A DNA stretch of 64,000 nt, taken from assembly GCA_016177735.1 (NCBI GenBank), contig JACOUS010000021.1, forward strand, positions 1 through 64,000, in the 5' to 3' direction. The notes below the pieces were generated by a model. The model had not been told where the DNA came from. It saw only the letters and a program-made list of their open reading frames with translations, and ran no database searches. A program made the position numbers and the translations under genes. The DNA is from Ignavibacteriales bacterium. Lineage in GTDB: Bacteria; Bacteroidota; Ignavibacteria; Ignavibacteriales; Melioribacteraceae. Shown here piece by piece: positions 26,253 to 49,427 of the stretch (its first letter is position 1; the number at the start of each line of letters is the position of its first letter).

Positions 26253-26585
26253 TCAACCCGTATTTTTCATCGAGTTATTCCATGTATCGCGCAGCTCTTT
26301 AAGAATTTTTAAAACAACTCCCGTATTCTGTTTACGCATTTGATCCTGGCAATATTGATAAAGTCTCAAAAGTCCGTTCGAAATTTCTCTTGCCGAAGGA
26401 TCGTCAAAATTGAGGGCGTTAATAAGAACTTGCAATGCCTCGTTCGTTTTTATCATTTCATTTTTTTGACAATTGATAATTGCAAAATCATACACCTTCA
26501 TTATCAACTGCTGGGGCGATGCGTTATTTATCTGATTAACGAGATACGAATTTGTTTTATTCGAATAAGCATTAGCAGTGTACAT
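26253..26585 (-). CDS. fliS: Flagellin export chaperone FliS
   Basis: A protein of 110 residues with the FliS core: an N-terminal YSNKTNSYLVNQINNASPQQ, then LIMKVYDFAIINCQ, LQVLINALNFDD and LLRLYQYCQDQMRK. The four-helix FliS binds the flagellin C-terminus and prevents early polymerisation. FliS also sequesters or releases flagellin in the FliW-CsrA circuit, encoded at 47992-48621. It follows the flagellin terminator and precedes fliD by 2 bp. Confidence 0.92.
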   Translation of the reverse strand: MYTANAYSNKTNSYLVNQINNASPQQLIMKVYDFAIINCQKNEMIKTNEALQVLINALNFDDPSAREISNGLLRLYQYCQDQMRKQNTGVVLKILKELRDTWNNSMKNTG

Positions 26586-26607: not shown

Positions 26608-26637
26608 AAAAAAAGCCCCCCGATTAAAACCGGGGGG
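26608..26637 (-). terminator. Flagellin terminator
   Basis: CCCCCCG (26616-26622) pairs with CGGGGGG (26631-26637). On the minus strand the stem is followed by seven T. It separates flagellin from fliS, so filament mRNA would end here. Confidence 0.9.
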
Positions 26638-26653
26638 ATGGATCAACTCTCAA

Positions 26654-27484
26654 TTAACGGAAAAGACTGAGTATCTGTTGAGGTGCTGAATTCATTTGAG
26701 AAAGCATTGCAGTAGCAATCTGGTTCATGATTGAGCCTTTGGTTGCATTCAATTGCTCCTCTGCGGCATCGGCATCAAATATGTTGCTGATTGTTGCAGT
26801 GTTGTTGGCAATTGCAGCGGTCAGGTATTCTTCTCTTGAATCGAGTGTCTGTGAAAGGTTACCGATTCTTCCGAGAGCAGAACGAACGTTTGTAGCAACA
26901 GTTGTTGTATCATAATCATTAACTGTTGCGTCTGCTGTACATTGCAAGTTGCTTGTACCGATTGCAGTCGCTAATGTTGATGTAGAGAGATATGAAGAGC
27001 TACCAAAATCTACAGAGAATGCTGCACCGCTAACATCAAATGATGCAGAACTTAATGCTGTTGAACCGTCGGTGCTTGCCAATAATTGTGTACCGTTGAT
27101 GTTTGTGTTCTTCAAGATAGAATCGATTTCTGCTGCAAGAACTCTAATATCTTTTGCAATAGCGGCAGAATCTTTCAACGGGTCGTCGGCGTCAACTTGT
27201 TTTGCTTTGATCTGGTTCAATTTATCGTTAACCTGCTGAAGAGCTGATTCTGCTGTTGACAGATAGTTCTTTGCAGAAGAAATATTGGTAAGCTGTGACT
27301 TTTGTGTTAAGGTCTGAGCTTCCAATTTTTTACCAACGCTGTATCCCGATGTATCATCGGCTGCGCTGTTGATTCTTTTACCGGTTGCTAAACGAAGTTG
27401 TGCCTTTTCTGTTTGTGCATTAACTTTTGCCAATGCGTTATAAGCTTGTAAAGCACCAATATTTGTGTTAACTGAGAATGACAT
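26654..27484 (-). CDS. fliC: Flagellin
   Basis: A protein of 276 residues from the ATG at 27484 (GGAGG at 27490-27494); the in-frame ATG at 27496 precedes the Shine-Dalgarno sequence and is rejected. The N-terminal SFSVNTNIGALQAYNAL and LRLATGKRINSAADDTSGYS, and the C-terminal MNQIATAMLSQMNSAPQQIL, then SLFR, are the conserved D0/D1 helices. The variable centre (about 140-200) is short and Ser/Thr-rich, a plausible site for glycans made by the adjacent island. Flagellin is the filament subunit. It has its own sigma-28 promoter and a leader hairpin suited to CsrA control. Confidence 0.95.
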   Translation of the reverse strand: MSFSVNTNIGALQAYNALAKVNAQTEKAQLRLATGKRINSAADDTSGYSVGKKLEAQTLTQKSQLTNISSAKNYLSTAESALQQVNDKLNQIKAKQVDADDPLKDSAAIAKDIRVLAAEIDSILKNTNINGTQLLASTDGSTALSSASFDVSGAAFSVDFGSSSYLSTSTLATAIGTSNLQCTADATVNDYDTTTVATNVRSALGRIGNLSQTLDSREEYLTAAIANNTATISNIFDADAAEEQLNATKGSIMNQIATAMLSQMNSAPQQILSLFR

Positions 27485-27489
27485 AACTA

Positions 27490-27530
27490 CCTCCATGTGT
27501 TTTTATTTTTCCCCAAGCTTCCTTGCTTGG
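27490..27530 (-). promoter_or_regulatory. Predicted CsrA-binding leader of flagellin mRNA
   Basis: On the minus strand CCAAGC-AAGGAA-GCTTGG (27530-27513) forms a 6-bp hairpin with GGA in the loop, the preferred CsrA site. A second GGA lies in the Shine-Dalgarno sequence GGAGG (27494-27490), 17-20 bases downstream. Two such sites in this arrangement repress hag translation in Bacillus subtilis until FliW removes CsrA. Confidence 0.75.
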
Positions 27531-27561
27531 CGTTGTTTATGAGATTTATTTCTCAATTATA

Positions 27562-27588
27562 TTATCGGTGAGAGGCTAATAAAGTTTA
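27562..27588 (-). promoter_or_regulatory. Sigma-28 promoter of flagellin
   Basis: On the minus strand TAAACTTT, 11 bases, ACCGATAA, differing from the FliA consensus at one base in each box and with exact spacing. It starts about 20 bp after the stop of the upstream glycosyltransferase gene and gives a leader of about 70 bases that includes the CsrA-type hairpin. Confidence 0.88.
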
Positions 27589-27607: not shown

Positions 27608-29113
27608 TTACAGCCCGAGCAGTTTTTTTATAGATGTGATCTTGTGCAATACTGATTCCGGTACGTTTGAAATTGCTTCAAGCTTTTGAAGGTAGTAAAT
27701 AATTTTTCCTGAGTCGCCAAGTTGAACCGCGCAAGAAATTAAGAAGAGGTAACCACCGGCGTCCAACAATTCAATATTGTTTTCCAGCAAAAGCATTGCG
27801 TCTTTGGCACGGTTTTCTTCCGCAAGAATGTTTGCTCTAAGTTTCAGCACATCAATCATCTGCGGATATTTTTCCAACAGAAATTTTGAAAGCTCTTCCC
27901 TCTGATGATTATCTTTTGATGCCGCAACAAGAGATGTAAAAAGAGAAATATTTTTGTCGTTCGTTGTTTCTCTAAACAATTTGACTTCCATCGGATCGAG
28001 AGATAATCCGCCCAAAAGTTTTTGTATGATTTTTATTCTTAACTCTGAATCAGCCGGATATTCTTTTTGATAAAACGATAACAACTTTTCTACAAAGTGC
28101 TTAACACCGTCAATCGATTTGGAAAGTAAACCGAGTGAAATGCCGTAAAAAATTATTTCTTCCTCATCAACAAGGCATGAAAGTTCGCTCTCTATCTGGA
28201 GATTGCTTTGTTTTGAGTTGAGCGCAAGAGAATTTTTACATTCGGTTAACGAGGCAGCTAAACTTCCCTTTTGCAGTTTAATCTTCGAACTTAGGTACGA
28301 GGCGTAAGGATTATTGGAATTTATCAACCGCGACTGCTCAATACTTTTTTCTGCCTCTGTCCCCTTTCCTATCGAATGATAGATGAATGCCATCGAAGTA
28401 TAACTATCGGCGCGCAATGTTTTATTCAATCTTTTGTCATCAGAAGAAATTTTGAAATAGTGAAGAGCTTGTTCGTATTCATCGATAATAGTATAAGTGT
28501 TTCCAAGTTGGTAAGCGTCATACGGATGTTTATCCCGTTCAAATTGATTTAGCAGTATCGCCAAATTTCTTTCGGCTTTTTTCTTTTTCCCATCGGTAGG
28601 TATATTATAACCAACATGATCAATTACAATCGAGCAATTAATCAACTTGTACTTATTTTCAATTAATGACGGAACAATCTGTTCATGCACTTTACCGGTA
28701 AATTTTATTTCGGGCTGATTTCTAAACAAGCGTGTATTGCGCATTACATTTGTTCGTCCGGTATAAGTATCAATGTTGTTAACCACACAGTAGTAACCAA
28801 GTTTCTGATCTCCAGAAATTATTTTTTTTAATTCATCATGCGAAGATTTTACCAACCGCTCATCCGCATCAAGGTATAAAATCCAATCACCGGTAGATTG
28901 TTCGAGTGCAAAATTGCGCGCTGCGGAAAAATCATTAATCCAATCAAAGTGAAAAATTTTTGCATTATATACTTGCGCGATCTCAATAGTTGAATCAGTC
29001 GAGCCGGTATCTACAATCACAATTTCATCAACAACATCTTTAACGGATTCAAGGCAATCGCGAAGATATTTTTCTTCGTTCTTAACAATCATTGAAAGCG
29101 TAATGGCTGGCAT
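27608..29113 (-). CDS. GT2 glycosyltransferase with TPR repeats
   Basis: A protein of 501 residues. The N-terminal GT-A domain has TLSMIVKNEEKYLRDCLES, VVDEIVIVDTGSTDST and the LYLDADERL metal-binding DxD. From about 185 to the end, helix pairs with TPR-like spacing (YDAYQLGNTYTIIDEYEQAL and repeats) form a protein-binding platform. The layout resembles O-GlcNAc-type and other protein glycosyltransferases that recognise a protein acceptor. It follows the giant transferase gene by 2 bp and precedes the flagellin promoter, so flagellin is the likely acceptor; that is inference from position. Confidence 0.88.
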   Translation of the reverse strand: MPAITLSMIVKNEEKYLRDCLESVKDVVDEIVIVDTGSTDSTIEIAQVYNAKIFHFDWINDFSAARNFALEQSTGDWILYLDADERLVKSSHDELKKIISGDQKLGYYCVVNNIDTYTGRTNVMRNTRLFRNQPEIKFTGKVHEQIVPSLIENKYKLINCSIVIDHVGYNIPTDGKKKKAERNLAILLNQFERDKHPYDAYQLGNTYTIIDEYEQALHYFKISSDDKRLNKTLRADSYTSMAFIYHSIGKGTEAEKSIEQSRLINSNNPYASYLSSKIKLQKGSLAASLTECKNSLALNSKQSNLQIESELSCLVDEEEIIFYGISLGLLSKSIDGVKHFVEKLLSFYQKEYPADSELRIKIIQKLLGGLSLDPMEVKLFRETTNDKNISLFTSLVAASKDNHQREELSKFLLEKYPQMIDVLKLRANILAEENRAKDAMLLLENNIELLDAGGYLFLISCAVQLGDSGKIIYYLQKLEAISNVPESVLHKITSIKKLLGL

Positions 29114-29115
29114 AA

Positions 29116-32100
29116 TTACTCGACAAGCGATGTATGATTGATTTCGTAACCGAGCAGTTCGTTTACGCTGGATAGTTTTTGCTGTGCTTCCAAATTTTGC
29201 GGATCATTTTTCAATGCCCACTCGTACATCGCTTTGGCATTTTCAAATTGATTTTCAGCAAGCAATACATCCCCTAATCCCAAACATGCCGAGCTGGAAT
29301 CAGGCGAGTAATTCAATTGTTGTTCAAAATAATTTTTTGCTTTCTGAATGTCATTCAATGCGAAACTTAATTTGCCGGCAAGCCCCAGTAATTCCGAAAT
29401 ATCGATGTCGGCAGTGTCTGCTTCAAACATCTCGATTGCATTTTCTATACTGATTAAAGCAAGCTCTAAATTATTCCCTTCGAGATAAAATTTTGCTTCC
29501 TCTATAAAATCGTTCAAACTGCCGGCAGACTTATCAATTTGAATGTTGTTTAAGTGAAGATCCAAATCCGCCCGTGTAAAATTTTGGTATTTGTTCAAAA
29601 GTTTTTGAACATTCTTGGAATCAAATTCAATAGTGAGCAGTTTTTGATATGCTTCGATATAGCGGCTGACTGAATTATATTCCGAATATTCAATTGAAGT
29701 GAGCAGACCTTTTTCCAAAACATCATTCAAAGGAATTTTTTTATAGAATATTTCAGCAATACGCCTCGAGAGTTCTGTTACATTGCCGTAATCGATAAGA
29801 AATGAATTATACCCGTCGAAGCAGAAACTTTCGGCGCCCATATTTTTTGTTGTAATTGTTGGAGTGCCGCAAGCCATCGCTTCCAAAAGCGGCAATGAAA
29901 ATCCTTCATACCACGAAGTGCATGCAACAAGGCTTACCTTCCGTATAAGTTCCGCTATTTCGGTGCTGGTTTGTTTTGTTTTCAATTCGATCACACAATT
30001 AAGCTCTTTCTGTAGCTGCTCTACCATCTCTTCCGAATCTTCTATTTCGGAGCCAAAGATTAAATAAAGTTTTAACCCGCTGATGTTCAATTGCGAATTC
30101 TGCAAAGTTCTAATCGCTTGTGATAAAAAGAGCAAACCCTTCAGCAGATATTTCGGATTACCAATAAACACGATTGATTTCTCGCGTTTCATGTAGTCAA
30201 AATTTGGATAAAATATTTTATGATCAACTCCGTTCGGAACGTATTCGGTTTCTCTATCAAATTTTTCTTTGAACAACTCCGAGAGATGTTTGGAGACAAC
30301 AATATTTTTGACCGGAACTGCATGAAGTTTTGTGAGGAGATGCTTATCGCTTCTAAGTTCTTCGTAAGTAACTCCGTAATGATATCCTTCGTACCCCTGA
30401 CAAATATGAACAATCTTTTCAAGCGGCGCATGATTTAACATCATCGGTAAATCAAAAATGCTGAACACAATGAATAAATCATACTTGTTGTTTTCGATCA
30501 GCTGTCCATCCTTCAGCTGAATATACTTAACATCCACATGAGTCCAAGCCGGTTTTACAGCGTAAGAGTAAACGACTACACCAATACCAAAATTCTTAAG
30601 CCATTCAATATGTTTAAATAACACTTTGGTGCCGCCGCCGATTACGGAAGCGTCCGCAATAAAAAACGCAACACATCTCGATGAAACTGCCGCGCTTGAT
30701 TTTGCAGCAGTCTGGTTAAACGCTATCAGGTCTTTATCCAAATCGATATCATCATATTTGTAGCCGGTTTTACAAGAAGGGCAGATAAAATTACTTTCGG
30801 AATTAGATTTCTCCATCTTGCTTATAAAATTTATTCGAACATGTCCGCCGCATTCAGAGCATTTGAATTTCATTTTATGCAAGACGGAGCTTGAATATAC
30901 TTTGCTCGGCTTGATATCCCATGAAATAATATCCTTCGGATCCAACTGTTTATAAATTTGATTTTCCGGGAAGCCAATCAAACGCGGCACAAACTTGCTG
31001 TAATTTTTTAGATCATCTGCATTGGTTTTCAAAATCTTATCAAAATAAATTTCGACTGCCATTGCATTTTTTTGATCCCCTTCTTTTATCAGTTTTTCAA
31101 CGTAAGTCATACCTTCTTTTACCAAATCATAACCGCTATCATCATGAGCTTTCTTCGAGAGAAATTTTTTGAGCAGCGGCTTTACATCAGGATGTATCAG
31201 CTCCTTTAAGTAGAAATTTACAATCTCCTCAATCTTGCGCATGATAGCATTGCGAAGCGAAGGCTGCTGCTTACCAACCCATGCTAACATTTTCTCAATC
31301 AGTACCGATGTAAAACCGCACTTGTACAAAAATGCATTATCCTTTGTTGTTACATAGATAACTTCATTTATGGCAAGAAGAATATGCTGATCAATCGTCA
31401 GGTCCAACAAAGGGAAAAGTTTTTCAAAAGAATTCTGATTCAAAAACTTGTACAGTGCACGTGTTGAATCGAGTACACCGCCTTCTATAAATGAGTTGGT
31501 TGTTTGCCCCGGATGAATTCTTGTTGTGCATGTTCTATTATCAATAAACACCGATTCGTACTGTGCAGATATTCTAAGCCACATATCAAAATCTTGCCCT
31601 TGCCGCAGATTTTCATTAAACAAACCAACATTGTCAAATACGGATTTATGAATTGCGATAGAATTACCATGAACATAATTTGCCCAGAAAAAACGCGTTA
31701 CTTGAAATTCTCTTTCAAAAGGTTCAAGCCATGTTCCGGTTTTTATTTTTTGTCCGGTTTGCTGTAAATAAATAAACCAATGACTCGTAAAGAATTTTAT
31801 TTCAGGAAACTGAGCAATGGCTTTGTAATGGATTTCAAGTTTATTCGGCTCGAACCAATCATCGGATGAGAGCCAGCAGAACCATTCTCCTTTTGCGTTT
31901 TTTATTCCGGCATTTAATGCCGATGAAACACCACCGTTTTCTTTGTGAATCGCTTTAAATCTTTTATCAAGCGATAAATATTTTGCAATTACCTCTTTTG
32001 TATTATCGGTGCTTCCGTCATTTACGATTATCGCTTCCCAATTCGTAAAAGTCTGCGCAAGCAGTGTGTCCAATGCCTCGCCGAGATATTGGTCGTGATT

Positions 32101-35100
32101 ATAAACCGGAACAATAACAGAAAAGAACGGAGGTCTTTCAACTGCCGGTTTAAGCTTTTTCTGTTCGGCAAAAAATCTTGCCATAGAAATCAAAGTTTTC
32201 CACTTTTCAACCATTCCGTTAATTGTTAATTTTTTCTCGAACATCATTTCGCGCGGAGAATATTTTTTTTCTAGAACTTCCGATAAACCCTTTTCGAAAT
32301 CATCCCCAAAATATCCTACACACGCGCGTTCTTCTTCCATAAAATCTGCAAAGATGCCGGTGTTATGCATTATAACCGGAAGATTACAAAAACATGCTTC
32401 AATTGCCGCGAGGCATTGTGTTTCTACCGGTGAACCGAGTATAAAGAAATCGGCACAGTTCAACAACTTTGCAAGTTTAGTTTGATCAATTCTGTTAAAA
32501 GTTCTGCAATTCTTTTTTTCATATTGTTTGTTATCCTTCGATACGATAATCCAGAATATTTCATCGTGATTATCAATTACCTTTTTAACATTCTCCCATC
32601 CTTTTACTTCACTCAAATCACCGACAAATATTCCGACCTTTGAATTCGGAATATTGAACTCACTCCGCACAATTTTTTTATCGAGAGGGCGAAACAAATC
32701 ATCGTCAACGCCAATCGGAATTATTTCAAAATTATATTCAGGATACGACGCGGCGGTAATCTTCGAATTTGTAACTAAGAGATCTGCATGTTTAATATTA
32801 ACTTCTTGCTGAAATGATTTTCTGCCCATCGCTCTCAAATTATCTTGCAAGTAAAGAATCGTAAAATGATCATTATCGATTAAATCAATAAACGTAGCAT
32901 TCTGAACTACCACAGCATTTTCGGGACAATTTTCTTTTAAGTGCTTTCTGGCTTCCACCTCAAAATTTTTTGTAACATGAAGCGAATCCATATCAACGCC
33001 AACCGCATTCGGCAGATTAGAAAGTAGGAAGCCCCACATTGTTTTTTCGCCCATTCTGCCAAGCAAATAATCATTACAGATTATGGTGCGTACTTCATTA
33101 TGCTGCGATTCAACCGTTCCGGCAGAGTCCATCTCTCCGCATTGGAAATGATAGACAACAGAATCGTAAGTTGTTGTATGTTGTATGCCGATACTTGTTA
33201 ACTTTTGCATTAACACAACATCACCGCTAACGCAAGCCTCTCCTTTTTTCGCAATCGCCGGATTAAAAATTTCTGTCCCGGGAATAACGTTCCCTTCAGG
33301 GTAACCGCCGGCTTTTACAAAATCATCTTTTCTAATTAAGAGAGGCATGAAGAGTCCGCCGTTTACAAGATTTTCTTCGCTGATAGTTTTAGCAAATTCT
33401 TGAAATGCAATTTCATCGTAATCATTAACAGTTCTGCCGAAATTTTTACTTACGGCATGATCACCAGAAAGTAATTTACCCGATTCAACTAGCCGCGAAG
33501 CGACACAGTTATTGCCGCTAATTTTACCGAAAAGATTTTCGACCCAATTTTCTGAAAACGCCATGTCGCTGTTAATGAACAACAAGTAATCGCCTTTTGC
33601 TTTTTCGGCGGCATAATTCCACGCACGGTAAACATTATTGATATACCATTCTTTTCTTTGTTCGGACGAATTATTCCAAACATAATTAGGAATGTAATTT
33701 TCATTGAGATAACGGAGAACTTCTTCGTTTGCATCGTTCGCCACAAAGTAAAATTCTTTATCGCGAAGGTCGGTGTATTTTAAAACTTGTTCATAAACAA
33801 ACTTGAGCCAGTCAGTACTTTTATAAATTAAACATACAATCGAAATTCTCGGCTTGAAGACTTCGTCTTTATAATCATCAAGACTCGCCAAAGCTTCATT
33901 AAAGCCGCGTTGAAAAGGTTTATCATCATCAATGTACAATCCAGCCGGGAACAGTTTTTCATCTACTTTTTCAAGAGTGAGCGTTTTTTCGTCAAGCAGT
34001 CTTTCCAATGCCCAGCCGGTTTGACCGTGTGAACGGTAAACAAGATATTTGAATGCAAGCGAACGGTCGGATGCAAATCCGTAATGAATCACCCCAACAT
34101 TGTTTGTTCTTTCAATTTTCGAGATTGAATGCGGATACTGCTGCTGATGCAAACCGGGTCCAGAATCTTTGAATCCAAGTTCGGGAGTAACCCGCCACAG
34201 ACGAACGAACCATCCGAGATCATAAGAATTGTCAATTCGTTTCCACGAATGACTTCTCCACAAATTTATTTCATGGAGGCTGATCCCATCGATATTATTT
34301 TCATCTGCATACTTGCAGAGTTTGTGCAATTCGATATTTGCATTCGCAGTTAAAACTTCATCTGCATCGAGCCACAAAATAAAATCCGGCTCAAGTTTAA
34401 GCGCGTATTCAAGGAGAATTTTTTTATGGTTCACTTCATTCTTAAAATCATTTTCTCCGGCACGTAAAGTAAATATCGCTTTGTCGAGCATGTACTCGTA
34501 GCTTCCATCCGTACTCCCGTCATCGTAAACAACAAGCCCGTCGCAAACCGGTTCAATAAATTTCCAGAAGCGTTCTAAATTTTCTTTTCTGATTTCATTA
34601 TAAACTTGAGTAATGCAGACAATTTTATATCGGCTCGCTTGGTTTTTTCCTTCGTCAACAACGGCAATTTCATTTGTATTACTGTTGTTGAGATAAACAT
34701 CGTTAATCCATAATGAATCGTATTGTAAACGACCGGGTTGAATTGGAAAGCTTGTTAATTCAAGCAAAGAAAATCCTTTTTCTTCCAGATACTTTACAAC
34801 TTCGTTGTGAAGTTTTTGTCCCTCGAAGAATGGATATGATTCGGATTCAAGATGCATAATTTTTACGGTAGAGAGTAAACCGCCCATTCCTTCTAAAACT
34901 TCTATTGCTGCACCTTCAACATCAATCTTCATCATATCAACTTTTTCGATATTGTATTTTTTAGCAAGCGTCTCAAAGCGGTATGAAGGCAATTTAATTA
35001 CTTCGTTACCGTATTCATTGCCTCGATTAAAAATGCTGTGGATGCCGTTAATTTTTTTCTTATAGAAATCGACTTCACCATCTCTATCGGAAATAACTGC

Positions 35101-35910
35101 ATTAATACAAACAATATCGTTTAACCCATTCAGGTATTTATTGTAGTTATCTGGCAAAGCTTCGATTGCATAAACCTCGGCAGACGGAAATACTTTTTTG
35201 AAATACTGAGAGTCGTTGGCATCCAGCGCACCAATTTCGACAACGGTTTTAATTTCGTTTCCGCCGGCAAACATTTGTTTTGCCTTGCTTACAAAGGCAG
35301 GCATTGTAATTGACTTATTAACATTTCTATCAAAATAATCTTTCGCAAATGCAATATTTTTTTCTTCGCTGCTTTCCCATGAAAGTTGAGTTTTCCTTTT
35401 TCGTATTAGAGTCAATCCGGGATGAATCGGAATCGTCATCATCTCAAATTCATCGTTATGTTTTTTCAATTCCTCAATTACCAAATACGCATCACCGCAA
35501 TAACCTTTATCGGTGTACTGTAAATTTTTCGGATGAGTATCATGCAATAAAATCAAACCGTGATCTTTCACATACGGAAAAAAATTCCAAAAATCTTTCA
35601 GCACTGATTCTTTTGAATGATCGGCATCAATAAAAAGCATATCTATTGAGATTGGATTCTCTTTCAAAGCGTCTGCAAACTGGTCTGTAGTTGAATTCAC
35701 AAAAACTGTTTTCTCCGAAACAGTCATATGTTTTCCGGCAGACGGAGAAACATCAACTCCAATAAGAATATCGGCATACGGAACAATTTTGTTGAACAAC
35801 CCGCATTGATACAATCCCAACTCAACATAAATTTTTGGTCTGTATTGAGAAGCGAGATATACTATAAAATCTTCATGCCAATTTTCTTTTCTCTCAATAG
35901 GTTGATTCAT
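29116..35910 (-). CDS. Giant multidomain glycosyltransferase/methyltransferase (about 2,264 residues)
   Basis: A very long single frame from the ATG at 35910; the earlier in-frame start (35931) would overlap the upstream gene by 20 bp. Domains in order, residue numbers approximate: class I methyltransferase (15-190; ELGLYQCG near 30, FIDADHSKES near 100); FkbM-type methyltransferase (220-395; VVEIGALDAN); GT2 (427-600; VVYDDGSTDG near 463, LWLDADEVL); second GT2 (688-860; NSDMAF); GT-B/GT4-like (1040-1240; PIGVDDDLF, GDLSEVKGW); third GT2 (1263-1500; VIVPVYNHDQYLGEAL, VNDGSTDNT); four-cysteine zinc ribbon (1680-1715); GT4 (1750-2080; GGGTKVLFKHIEW, EGFSLPLLEAMACGTPT); TPR-like end (2110-2264). 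It would build and methylate a glycan, most likely on flagellin given its place upstream of the gene. Confidence 0.9.
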   Translation of the reverse strand: MNQPIERKENWHEDFIVYLASQYRPKIYVELGLYQCGLFNKIVPYADILIGVDVSPSAGKHMTVSEKTVFVNSTTDQFADALKENPISIDMLFIDADHSKESVLKDFWNFFPYVKDHGLILLHDTHPKNLQYTDKGYCGDAYLVIEELKKHNDEFEMMTIPIHPGLTLIRKRKTQLSWESSEEKNIAFAKDYFDRNVNKSITMPAFVSKAKQMFAGGNEIKTVVEIGALDANDSQYFKKVFPSAEVYAIEALPDNYNKYLNGLNDIVCINAVISDRDGEVDFYKKKINGIHSIFNRGNEYGNEVIKLPSYRFETLAKKYNIEKVDMMKIDVEGAAIEVLEGMGGLLSTVKIMHLESESYPFFEGQKLHNEVVKYLEEKGFSLLELTSFPIQPGRLQYDSLWINDVYLNNSNTNEIAVVDEGKNQASRYKIVCITQVYNEIRKENLERFWKFIEPVCDGLVVYDDGSTDGSYEYMLDKAIFTLRAGENDFKNEVNHKKILLEYALKLEPDFILWLDADEVLTANANIELHKLCKYADENNIDGISLHEINLWRSHSWKRIDNSYDLGWFVRLWRVTPELGFKDSGPGLHQQQYPHSISKIERTNNVGVIHYGFASDRSLAFKYLVYRSHGQTGWALERLLDEKTLTLEKVDEKLFPAGLYIDDDKPFQRGFNEALASLDDYKDEVFKPRISIVCLIYKSTDWLKFVYEQVLKYTDLRDKEFYFVANDANEEVLRYLNENYIPNYVWNNSSEQRKEWYINNVYRAWNYAAEKAKGDYLLFINSDMAFSENWVENLFGKISGNNCVASRLVESGKLLSGDHAVSKNFGRTVNDYDEIAFQEFAKTISEENLVNGGLFMPLLIRKDDFVKAGGYPEGNVIPGTEIFNPAIAKKGEACVSGDVVLMQKLTSIGIQHTTTYDSVVYHFQCGEMDSAGTVESQHNEVRTIICNDYLLGRMGEKTMWGFLLSNLPNAVGVDMDSLHVTKNFEVEARKHLKENCPENAVVVQNATFIDLIDNDHFTILYLQDNLRAMGRKSFQQEVNIKHADLLVTNSKITAASYPEYNFEIIPIGVDDDLFRPLDKKIVRSEFNIPNSKVGIFVGDLSEVKGWENVKKVIDNHDEIFWIIVSKDNKQYEKKNCRTFNRIDQTKLAKLLNCADFFILGSPVETQCLAAIEACFCNLPVIMHNTGIFADFMEEERACVGYFGDDFEKGLSEVLEKKYSPREMMFEKKLTINGMVEKWKTLISMARFFAEQKKLKPAVERPPFFSVIVPVYNHDQYLGEALDTLLAQTFTNWEAIIVNDGSTDNTKEVIAKYLSLDKRFKAIHKENGGVSSALNAGIKNAKGEWFCWLSSDDWFEPNKLEIHYKAIAQFPEIKFFTSHWFIYLQQTGQKIKTGTWLEPFEREFQVTRFFWANYVHGNSIAIHKSVFDNVGLFNENLRQGQDFDMWLRISAQYESVFIDNRTCTTRIHPGQTTNSFIEGGVLDSTRALYKFLNQNSFEKLFPLLDLTIDQHILLAINEVIYVTTKDNAFLYKCGFTSVLIEKMLAWVGKQQPSLRNAIMRKIEEIVNFYLKELIHPDVKPLLKKFLSKKAHDDSGYDLVKEGMTYVEKLIKEGDQKNAMAVEIYFDKILKTNADDLKNYSKFVPRLIGFPENQIYKQLDPKDIISWDIKPSKVYSSSVLHKMKFKCSECGGHVRINFISKMEKSNSESNFICPSCKTGYKYDDIDLDKDLIAFNQTAAKSSAAVSSRCVAFFIADASVIGGGTKVLFKHIEWLKNFGIGVVVYSYAVKPAWTHVDVKYIQLKDGQLIENNKYDLFIVFSIFDLPMMLNHAPLEKIVHICQGYEGYHYGVTYEELRSDKHLLTKLHAVPVKNIVVSKHLSELFKEKFDRETEYVPNGVDHKIFYPNFDYMKREKSIVFIGNPKYLLKGLLFLSQAIRTLQNSQLNISGLKLYLIFGSEIEDSEEMVEQLQKELNCVIELKTKQTSTEIAELIRKVSLVACTSWYEGFSLPLLEAMACGTPTITTKNMGAESFCFDGYNSFLIDYGNVTELSRRIAEIFYKKIPLNDVLEKGLLTSIEYSEYNSVSRYIEAYQKLLTIEFDSKNVQKLLNKYQNFTRADLDLHLNNIQIDKSAGSLNDFIEEAKFYLEGNNLELALISIENAIEMFEADTADIDISELLGLAGKLSFALNDIQKAKNYFEQQLNYSPDSSSACLGLGDVLLAENQFENAKAMYEWALKNDPQNLEAQQKLSSVNELLGYEINHTSLVE

Positions 35911-35911
35911 G

Positions 35912-36730
35912 TTATGCTTCCTTGTAAGCAAAAAATTCTTTCATTGCTTTAATTTGTTCTTCGAGATTTTTCTTTGCTGTTCGTGCCGAAAGCGGATAGA
36001 CACTGCCCAAGCTTCTATCAATTGCGTCTTTGGCTTCTGCCGGATTGATCTTCAAATTCAATTCGTAAACTCTGCTGAATATTTGCAAAAGTTCATGCTT
36101 GTTAACGGTGTTCGGAGAGTGGATGTGAAAGATTCCTTTTTGATAAAGATTGTTCTTCAAAATATTTTCGATAACTTCTGCGAGATACAAAGTTGTAACG
36201 CCATTCCACAAATGATTTGTAAATCCGTTCACTTCTTTTCCGGCTTGACTTTTTGCCCATTCGAGCAGAGAGCGGCTCTGCCCGTTCTCTTCGCCAATAA
36301 TTGAAGTGCGGAGAACCATGCAGTCTTTATTTTCGCCGGCATTTTTGCTCAAGCCGTAAAGATCATCTGCATCGAAATAATCTTCTTCGGTGTACTTCCC
36401 TTTTTTGCCGGTGTAAACGCAGTCGGTTGTAACGTGAAAACATTTTATTCCTCGCTTGTTACAAACCTTTGCAAGATTTCTTGGAAAGAGAGAATTTATT
36501 TTTAGAACATTTTCTATTGTGTTCTTTGCAATTGTTGGCTTAATCACTCCGGCGCAGTTGATTACAACGTCAACGCCATCGAGAAATGATTCGAACTTTT
36601 CTGTCGGATCGTTCGCAATATCAAATTCATTGCGCGAGATTTCCACGACATCGTACTCCTTCGATTTGAAATACGAGCTGACAGCGTAGCCGAGCATCCC
36701 GGTTGTACCGATTATCAAAATTTTTTCCAT
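35912..36730 (-). CDS. RmlD-like NAD(P)-dependent sugar reductase
   Basis: A protein of 272 residues from the ATG at 36730 (GAGAGGT upstream); an in-frame start at 36763 lies within the upstream gene and is rejected. It is an SDR fold of the dTDP-4-dehydrorhamnose reductase type: ILIIGTTGMLGYAVSSYF, NCAGVIKPTIA, HVTTDCVYTGKKG and YGLSKNAGE. It may reduce a 4-keto nucleotide sugar. With the cupin and 2-epimerase-like neighbours it resembles a split version of the CapF/FnlB reductase-epimerase that makes UDP-L-fucosamine-type sugars. Confidence 0.8.
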   Translation of the reverse strand: MEKILIIGTTGMLGYAVSSYFKSKEYDVVEISRNEFDIANDPTEKFESFLDGVDVVINCAGVIKPTIAKNTIENVLKINSLFPRNLAKVCNKRGIKCFHVTTDCVYTGKKGKYTEEDYFDADDLYGLSKNAGENKDCMVLRTSIIGEENGQSRSLLEWAKSQAGKEVNGFTNHLWNGVTTLYLAEVIENILKNNLYQKGIFHIHSPNTVNKHELLQIFSRVYELNLKINPAEAKDAIDRSLGSVYPLSARTAKKNLEEQIKAMKEFFAYKEA

Positions 36731-47272: not shown

Positions 47273-47995
47273 CTATTTAGAGTTGAGAATTTCCAGCACT
47301 TCGAACTCGTTGATTAATAACTCACATTTATTTTCGATATCACTCCAATTAAGGTTAATATCGGATAGAATATATTCGCTCTCCGCACACATGTTCGATA
47401 TATTCGAATAACCGATCATACCGCTCGTACCTTTAATTTCATGAAGAACGGTTTTCAGCAAATCAGCATTACGGTTTTTAAGAGCAAATTTTATTGTTTC
47501 TTTCCGTTGGGGAAGACTCATTAAAAAATATTTTTTTAGTTGATTGTCGATCTCTTCCTTTTCGAGTTCCGTTAAGTAACGTGTCTTTCTTGCTTTCTCT
47601 AAAAAATCTTTGCCCATTACTTCATTGATACATTTATAGAGAACATCCTTGCTGAGCGGTTTTGAAAGAACTTTTACAGCACCGGCGTGCATAGCCGCAA
47701 GCACGTTATTTTTATCTGTGTGACCGCTTATTACAATCACGGGCAAATTTTTCAGGTCATCCAATATTTTAATAACCTTCAACATGCGGAGACCGTCAAG
47801 ATTCGGCATCATCAAATCAAGAAAAATCAGTTTGGGTTTATACTCAATTGCTTTTTGAATTCCTTCAAGTCCGTCGTTGCAAGTGATAACTTCAAGTTCA
47901 TATTCAGATAAAAAATTGCGGAGCGAGTTCCGTATAATATCGGAATCGTCTATTATAAGAATAGTAATTCTATCGCCGTAATAATCAGACATCAC
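47273..47995 (-). CDS. Response regulator with Hpt domain
   Basis: A protein of 240 residues. Receiver domain (8-130): TILIIDDSDIIRNSLRNFL, the phospho-acceptor in LIFLDLMMPNLDG, VIVISGHTD and VKVLSKPLSKD. A helical C-terminal part (150-240) holds HEIKGTSGMIGYSNI, the H-E-x-K-G pattern of a histidine phosphotransfer domain. Receiver plus Hpt suggests an intermediate in a phosphorelay. It lies between csrA (overlapping by four bases) and motA, so it may affect flagellar function. Confidence 0.88.
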   Translation of the reverse strand: MMSDYYGDRITILIIDDSDIIRNSLRNFLSEYELEVITCNDGLEGIQKAIEYKPKLIFLDLMMPNLDGLRMLKVIKILDDLKNLPVIVISGHTDKNNVLAAMHAGAVKVLSKPLSKDVLYKCINEVMGKDFLEKARKTRYLTELEKEEIDNQLKKYFLMSLPQRKETIKFALKNRNADLLKTVLHEIKGTSGMIGYSNISNMCAESEYILSDINLNWSDIENKCELLINEFEVLEILNSK

Positions 47996-48228
47996 TTTAC
48001 CTTCTTAATCTTATAGCCGGTGAGATCAATTTTATCATTTATACTTGCAAGCGATGCATCTACAGTATTTTGCTTAACTTTATGATAAACCTCACCGCGG
48101 TAAATTTGAATATCGCCGGGCGCAGAAATGCCGACCTTTACTTGATTATCGGACAAAGTCAAAATTTTTATAGTGATTTCGGTGCCGATTTTAATTTCTT
48201 CGTCTATTTTTCTTGTGAGTATTAACAT
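47992..48228 (-). CDS. csrA: Carbon storage/translation regulator CsrA
   Basis: A protein of 78 residues with the full CsrA sequence pattern: MLILTRKIDEEIKIGTEITI, KVGISAPGDIQIYRGEVYHK. The conserved L4, R6 and the GxxAPxxIxIxR strand are all present; the C-terminal tail is longer than usual, which is the form seen in FliW-bearing bacteria. CsrA binds GGA motifs and blocks translation; the flagellin leader here has two such motifs. It is 3 bp after fliW. Confidence 0.96.
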   Translation of the reverse strand: MLILTRKIDEEIKIGTEITIKILTLSDNQVKVGISAPGDIQIYRGEVYHKVKQNTVDASLASINDKIDLTGYKIKKVK

Positions 48229-48231
48229 GAT

Positions 48232-48621
48232 TCACTCTACGAATAAATTATAATAAAGAGAATATTTCTCGTTATCTAAAATTTTTTGATAACCGCTTTT
48301 TGCATCCTGATTGATATAAACCGGCGCTTTTAAGTTTATTGTTATTTTCAACGGGTCCGGGTTTAAAGTAACTATTCCGAATGCTTCGTGCTCTTCAACT
48401 TGCGGAAATGTGTCATCGAGCGCCCGCAAACCAAAGACCGGGAATGCAATTTCAGGCTTCTCGATCGAGTTGAGCCAATAGAAATAACTGTTCTCCGGTT
48501 TTATGAATACGAATTTTTTCAATTCTTCAAAACCGAAAGGTCCGTCGTCAAAAGTGAGAATGAGATCATCCTCAAATTCGATTTCACCGAATTGTTGTGT
48601 TTTTATTTTCATGTTGTTCAC
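48232..48621 (-). CDS. fliW: Flagellar assembly factor FliW
   Basis: A protein of 129 residues: KTQQFGEIEFEDDLILTFDD, GPFGFEELKKFVFI, FPVFGLRALDD and VTLNPDPLKITINLKAPVYI, all typical of FliW. FliW binds either flagellin or CsrA; free FliW removes CsrA from flagellin mRNA allosterically. It overlaps the upstream motB by four bases and precedes csrA by 3 bp, the common fliW-csrA pair. Confidence 0.95.
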   Translation of the reverse strand: MNNMKIKTQQFGEIEFEDDLILTFDDGPFGFEELKKFVFIKPENSYFYWLNSIEKPEIAFPVFGLRALDDTFPQVEEHEAFGIVTLNPDPLKITINLKAPVYINQDAKSGYQKILDNEKYSLYYNLFVE

Positions 48622-49427
48622 TTTAATATTACTATGTCCACTCTTCTATTTAATGCTCTTGTTTCAGATGTTTCGTTAGAAGCGATCGGGCGGTATTCTG
48701 CATAACCGACCACGGAAATTTTATCGGCAGACATTCCTTCGTACTGAATTAAATAATACGCAGTACCAAGTGCTCTATCAACCGATAAATGCCAGTTGGA
48801 AGGATACTGCTGTGTATTAATCGGGATATTATCCGTGTGCCCTTCTATTCTTATATCATTAGGAATATTTTTTATAACAACCGCCAAACGTTTTAAAACA
48901 AGTTTTGAAACTTCATTTAAACCGGCTCTGCCCGAATGAAACAAAATATCTTCAAGTATGTGAATGGTTACACCGCGTTCGTTTTCCTCCAAACGGATCG
49001 AGTTGGAGTAATTGTAATTAACGATAAGCTTATTCAGTTCGTCCGTTAATTTATGGCTCGGTTTGGGAATCACAACATTCTGTTGATTCAATGTTTTCAA
49101 TTCGGATTCACTTCCGAAAACATTTCCCAAAGCGGTAACTACACCTTTGTATTTTGTAACATCAATATTAGACATTGTATATAAGATAATAAACAACCCG
49201 AGCAGAAGCGTAATCAAATCTGCATAAGTAATCAGATAGCGGTCTTTATCGCCATCCTCATGAAATTGGGAATCTTCGGAGCCGGTTACCTGAGTTTGCC
49301 TAACTGGTCTTTTTGCGGAAGCATTCCTATTAATCGTGCCTTCATTATCGAAGGAATCTCTCCGCTCTGGAGTGTTAACACTCCCTCCAAAGATATCTCC
49401 ATCATATTCTTTTCCTCTGTATGACAT
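48618..49427 (-). CDS. motB: MotB-type stator protein (pair 2)
   Basis: A protein of 269 residues. A long charged N-terminus (about 60 residues) precedes one membrane helix DRYLITYADLITLLLGLFII with the ion-binding Asp, then an OmpA/MotB domain (about 160-269; IRIEGHTDNIPI, NWHLSVDRALGTAYYLI). The start at 49427 overlaps the end of the upstream motA by 142 bp in another frame. No later start codon lies before the conserved helix, so the overlap seems real. Confidence 0.9.
   Translation of the reverse strand: MSYRGKEYDGDIFGGSVNTPERRDSFDNEGTINRNASAKRPVRQTQVTGSEDSQFHEDGDKDRYLITYADLITLLLGLFIILYTMSNIDVTKYKGVVTALGNVFGSESELKTLNQQNVVIPKPSHKLTDELNKLIVNYNYSNSIRLEENERGVTIHILEDILFHSGRAGLNEVSKLVLKRLAVVIKNIPNDIRIEGHTDNIPINTQQYPSNWHLSVDRALGTAYYLIQYEGMSADKISVVGYAEYRPIASNETSETRALNRRVDIVILK

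Follow-up and report, generated by a model that had tools for sequence, protein, structure and literature searches.

Does the leader of the flagellin gene in this genome serve as a target for CsrA, and would FliW then relieve CsrA as it does in Bacillus subtilis? Two-site repression of the flagellin mRNA and its relief by FliW are established in B. subtilis (PMC6070490, PMC7652899). The question was raised here by an initial annotation of the 64,000-nucleotide stretch of DNA that we analysed (the window), which described a hairpin presenting GGA and a second GGA in the Shine-Dalgarno (SD) sequence ahead of a flagellin gene, and which took fliW, csrA and fliS to complete the set of parts known from B. 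subtilis.

The flagellin leader and its surroundings

The flagellin gene lies on the minus strand at 26654-27484, matches Pfam Flagellin_N and Flagellin_C, and is single in the genome (one match in a genome-wide search). The coding sequence was taken to start at the ATG at 27484 (MSFSVNTN); a longer reading frame, from 27496, starts within the SD. A genome of the same genus (G001) and 'Melioribacter roseus isolate FI88' (DYJK01000150.1, L205) share one flagellin start and leader.

Both GGA sites were found as annotated. The first putative CsrA site is the hairpin CCAAGC-AAGGAA-GCUUGG (27513-27530, minus strand), with a 6-bp stem and GGA in the AAGGAA loop at 27520-27522; it is present in both the MFE and the centroid fold of the predicted transcript (z -3.36, 1 of 200 shuffles being as stable). 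The second putative site, ACAUGGAGGU (27489-27498, minus strand), overlaps the SD, has its GGA at 27492-27494 and ends four bases ahead of the flagellin start codon. The leader thus carries the two features of the hag type, namely a conserved hairpin that lies before the SD and has GGA in its loop, and another GGA over the SD in a CsrA-type context. No family was matched in an Rfam search of the leader.

A sigma-28-like promoter, TAAACTTT-N11-ACCGATAA (27562-27588, minus strand), with two mismatches to the consensus, suggests that the flagellin transcript starts near 27555. There are three sigma-28-like matches in the window against 1.4 expected by chance, so the position of this promoter counts for more than its score. 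Given its location, the interval originally annotated, 27490-27588, consists of promoter plus leader. A pairing of the SD with GCCUCU, seen in the MFE structure of a longer stretch, was rejected because the GCCUCU bases fall within the promoter, and an ACAU...AUGU hairpin spanning the start codon was set aside since the second codon determines its 3' arm. A second small stem-loop, similar to UUGAGA-AAUAAA-UCUCAA, occurs at 27539-27556 (minus strand) near the predicted 5' end of the transcript, and similar letters recur in several Melioribacteraceae leaders.

Downstream, fliS, for the flagellin export chaperone, is found at 26253-26585 on the minus strand (Pfam FliS 39 bits, cut-off 26.7), and fliD was also confirmed by Pfam. 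Directly after the flagellin gene there is a strong stem resembling an intrinsic terminator (26616-26637, minus strand), 9 bp followed by a T run, which separates the flagellin gene from fliS and fliD. Directly upstream are two minus-strand open reading frames, 27608-29113 and 29116-35931. Judged by eye, one has a glycosyltransferase-like start and TPR-like repeats, and the other, of 2271 aa, resembles fused methyltransferase and glycosyltransferase domains; together they are possibly a flagellin glycosylation island.

The specificity of the leader within the 3.87-Mb genome was examined using a covariance model of the two-site leader (R1), built from 41 leaders including that of the window. 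The best score was 57.9 bits, at 27482-27534, and the next-best place in the genome scored 26.2 bits. A high score is expected for a leader that helped to build the model, and it is the gap to the remainder that matters. At E values up to 10 there were 24 places in the genome; those inspected match mainly at the SD, and none of them is a second flagellin-type leader. Weak R1 matches outside the class, at E about 1e-4, probably reflect the SD and were disregarded.

CsrA, FliW and residue 55

The gene fliW (48232-48612 from its ATG, minus strand) encodes 126 aa and matches Pfam FliW over profile positions 1-122 with 76.4 bits (cut-off 25). The Pfam domain takes up the whole protein, as is characteristic of the family, and the protein is similar to chain A of PDB 5dmb (E 7.5e-11). 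Three bases after the fliW stop begins csrA (47992-48228, minus strand, 78 aa; Pfam CsrA 76.1 bits, cut-off 27), which is single in the genome; all three accessory genes named in the initial annotation therefore score above their cut-offs. The CsrA has both the Pfam domain and the RNA-contact residue R44 of the CsrA/RsmA family. R44 is kept in 33/33 CsrAs of the order examined (Melioribacteraceae and relatives), and position 51, V here, is V or I in 30/33. A C-terminal extension is present, giving 78 aa here and 77-90 aa in relatives, compared with the 61 aa of E. coli.

The presence of the two proteins follows that of flagellin. Among 58 related genomes flagellin was found in 43, FliW in 42 and CsrA in 42, and in 57 of them csrA and fliW are present or absent together with flagellin. 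The sole exception (G043; L033, L092, L095, L097, L355) has four flagellin genes and FlhA, and gave no match for FliW, CsrA or the rod and hook proteins (no Flg_bbr_C match). It was considered as a natural negative control, having flagellins without csrA or fliW, and rejected: with FlhA present while rod and hook genes are missing, it is probably an assembly gap. No genome having flagellin and truly lacking CsrA was found among the 58.

Asn55 of CsrA is described as invariant in species with CsrA and FliW (PMC7829508). In B. subtilis, C. jejuni, C. difficile and G. sulfurreducens, FliW binds poorly or not at all once this residue is mutated (PMC7829508, PMC13407953). This mark of the FliW-antagonised CsrA class is absent here, the residue being Thr. 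Across 40 distinct CsrAs of the order, position 55 is Thr in 22, Ala in 5, Ile in 4, Ser in 4, Val in 2, Leu in 1 and Asn in 2, ie Asn is replaced in 38 of 40; the register is fixed by flanking residues, with no gap up to A58. Elsewhere in the class Asn55 was seen in 18/19, the exception having a divergent C-terminus, and in the remainder of the named set, largely from other phyla, in 35/36. The FliW proteins of the order lack about 14 aligned residues, corresponding roughly to 71-84 of Geobacillus FliW. A smaller deletion in that stretch is found in other members of the class, which keep N55. The regions of FliW reported to contact flagellin are 3-11, 22-28 and 95-115 (PMC6070490), and the deleted stretch falls outside them. 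Two CsrAs of the order (L007 of G017 and L327 of G463) have kept or regained N55 though their FliW has the same deletion. In a tree of FliW and CsrA with column 55 removed the order forms a single clade that encloses the two Asn cases, so that the loss of N55 is essentially one historical change and not by itself proof of co-adaptation. A single-sequence structure model of FliW was poor (pLDDT 48.6) and was discarded.

As to whether the Bacillus checkpoint is complete here, the claim consequently holds for the genes and fails in two details, the replacement of N55 in CsrA and a lineage-specific deletion in FliW; a Bacillus switch present unchanged does not stand. The CsrA-FliW pair of the order is a variant of which no description was found in the literature, and its antagonism is putative. 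As the CsrA residue needed by FliW in other bacteria has been replaced, the release step would either work differently or have been lost. FliW most likely continues to bind CsrA, with the contact remodelled, and we consider it probable that FliW relieves CsrA in this organism, although this is the weakest step, CsrA lacking N55 and FliW lacking the segment throughout the order. Evenly balanced, in our judgement, is a more specific proposal in which the CsrA-FliW contact was rewired in the order: N55 would have been lost where FliW was already losing its segment, the leader and fliW-csrA being kept, and FliW would antagonise CsrA through a different surface or have been replaced in that role.

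The strongest alternative, which we regard as unlikely, is that CsrA represses the leader but is no longer antagonised by FliW in the order, FliW being a flagellin-binding factor only and CsrA being titrated otherwise, eg by flagellin mRNA or by some RNA or protein. It would fit both the replacement, in 38/40 CsrAs, of a residue that, in four other species, is reported to be required for FliW to bind fully (PMC7829508, PMC13407953) and the position of the roughly 14 lost FliW residues outside the reported flagellin contacts. Against it, fliW and csrA remain adjacent and co-occur in the order, and conservation is good both in FliW and in the remainder of the CsrA C-terminal extension, as would be expected if the partners were still in contact.

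Covariation and distribution of the two-site leader

For comparison with related sequences, 62 distinct flagellin leaders were collected from the 58 related genomes. GGA-loop stems of at least 6 Watson-Crick pairs occur in 36 of them (58%), compared with 1.1% of shuffles and 3.8% of 78 leaders of other genes, an observation far beyond chance. When 52 leaders of the same order were aligned on A-N-GGA, all seven pairs covaried (113 double-change cells), with a covariation score of 0.761 compared with 0.243 for shuffled and at most 0.195 for slid controls. That set was required to contain A-N-GGA, which makes those letters constant by choice, and the best stem was taken where several candidates existed. 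An analysis made without either selection agrees with it: with the GGA nearest the SD chosen blind to pairing, the three positions closest to the loop are paired in 47-48 of 55 leaders.

The SD site accompanies the hairpin. An ACA-type SD was found in 46/50 leaders with a hairpin (at least 3 pairs in register) and 5/12 without (Fisher p = 0.0004); a small and partly biased control, in which ACAN precedes GGAGG in 7/17 other genes, was given no weight. The 41-leader alignment (A2) was likewise selected for leaders with hairpin and ACA-type SD, and the constancy of its SD therefore adds no independent evidence. The constant loop and SD letters of the relatives agree with the SELEX rule for CsrA, a six-base loop with ACA, GGA and GU (PMC7652899).

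Letters held in the loop and SD while the stem varies are the pattern expected from a protein reading both. They bear directly on a second alternative, that the hairpin serves structure or stability, for instance by protecting the abundant flagellin mRNA from decay, and is read by no protein. Abundant mRNAs can indeed be stabilised by a stem-loop close to the 5' end. Stability, however, needs neither a fixed A-N-GGA loop on a freely varying stem nor the matching CsrA-type context at the SD, and we consider this explanation very improbable. A chance GGA hairpin in an A-rich leader has in its favour that 4-bp GGA-loop stems occur in about 10% of shuffled leaders, but is already refuted by the comparative data, ie by the frequency of 6-bp stems in related leaders (58% against 1.1% of shuffles) and by the compensatory changes.

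In relatives with tandem flagellin genes one copy is often without the hairpin and the ACA-type SD, and such copies may escape CsrA control. Sigma-28-like boxes were present in 3/18 leaders without the hairpin and 22/44 with it (p = 0.02). In many tandem pairs (L096, L102, L103, L104, L112, L117, L127) it is the 5' copy that is without hairpin or ACA-type SD and the 3' copy that has both. The genome of the window has no hairpin-free flagellin copy.

The leader is not confined to this group. GTDB species genomes were scanned with a pattern that took in the loop, two bases from the stem's 3' arm and the SD and left out the 5' arm, and the two-site architecture was found to precede flagellin genes in at least six other phyla. 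Among the matches listed, 66/121 are flagellin leaders, and a stem of at least 4 bp is present in 57/66 of these compared with 5/55 of the others, two of those five being truncated flagellin starts. The matches listed span deltaproteobacteria (Desulfobulbaceae and relatives), Deferribacteres, Fibrobacter and Chitinivibrionales, Neomarinimicrobiota, Bacillota and an Actinomycetes MAG. In the Bacillota, Paenibacillus cellulosilyticus and Acetoanaerobium noterae each carry a comparable GGA hairpin ahead of a flagellin gene that lies near csrA or fliW. Of the 44 genomes of the named loci, 39 gave a FliW match. The description of the window's source as a very distant phylum was right, yet FliW-CsrA control had already been reported as widespread (PMC6070490, PMC7652899), and the spread of the leader over phyla fits those reports.

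The proposal that the leader contains CsrA sites is strongly supported: the stem covaries, the loop is conserved, a further site lies at the SD, the leader is unique in the genome, and csrA and fliW occur along with it. On this comparative evidence the leader is almost certainly a CsrA-type two-site element. Control of the flagellin leader by CsrA is very likely, and repression of flagellin through the leader is highly probable.

Proposed mechanism and comparison with known systems

The following scheme would account for the observations. The sigma-28-type promoter would give a flagellin mRNA with a leader of roughly 70 nt and two CsrA sites, the first being the upstream hairpin with GGA in its loop and the second lying over the SD, 28 nt further on. 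By analogy with established CsrA work, from which we infer binding, bridging and repression, a CsrA dimer on the hairpin would bridge to the SD site and block the ribosome. Export of flagellin would then leave FliW free to relieve CsrA, so that flagellin synthesis would follow export. For the model as a whole, two-site CsrA repression of the flagellin mRNA with FliW relief coupled to export, we are reasonably confident.

On the evidence of covarying base pairs, very probable CsrA control of flagellin translation now reaches a deep branch within the Bacteroidota group, and the two-site leader proves to be a widely shared element matching no Rfam family. The replacement of N55 across the order, with the other parts kept, offers a natural way to test which contacts between FliW and CsrA are indispensable, and how a protein switch can come to be rewired while keeping its RNA target.

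Compared with known systems, the putative recognition of GGA in a loop, and R44 as aligned to solved CsrA chains, are as in E. coli CsrA with its CsrB and CsrC RNAs. E. coli, in contrast, lacks FliW and relies on RNAs to antagonise its CsrA; an Rfam search of the 64-kb window gave no RNA of the CsrB/C type. The same two protein families form the Geobacillus thermodenitrificans FliW-CsrA complex, PDB 5dmb containing relatives of both window proteins, and the CsrA-FliW pair of Campylobacter jejuni. Unlike the window, both of those species have N55 in CsrA (PMC7829508), and Geobacillus FliW, unlike that of the order, retains the segment of about 14 residues. The closest resemblance is to the Hag-FliW-CsrA checkpoint of B. 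subtilis, which shares a two-site flagellin leader with one site over the SD (the B. subtilis leader was not aligned), fliW directly upstream of csrA, and fliS. It differs in having Asn rather than Thr at CsrA position 55, a FliW longer by about 14 residues, and flgK-flgL where a motB-like gene (48618-49427) precedes fliW-csrA here. The RNA brake itself belongs to an already known kind, as in Bacillus.
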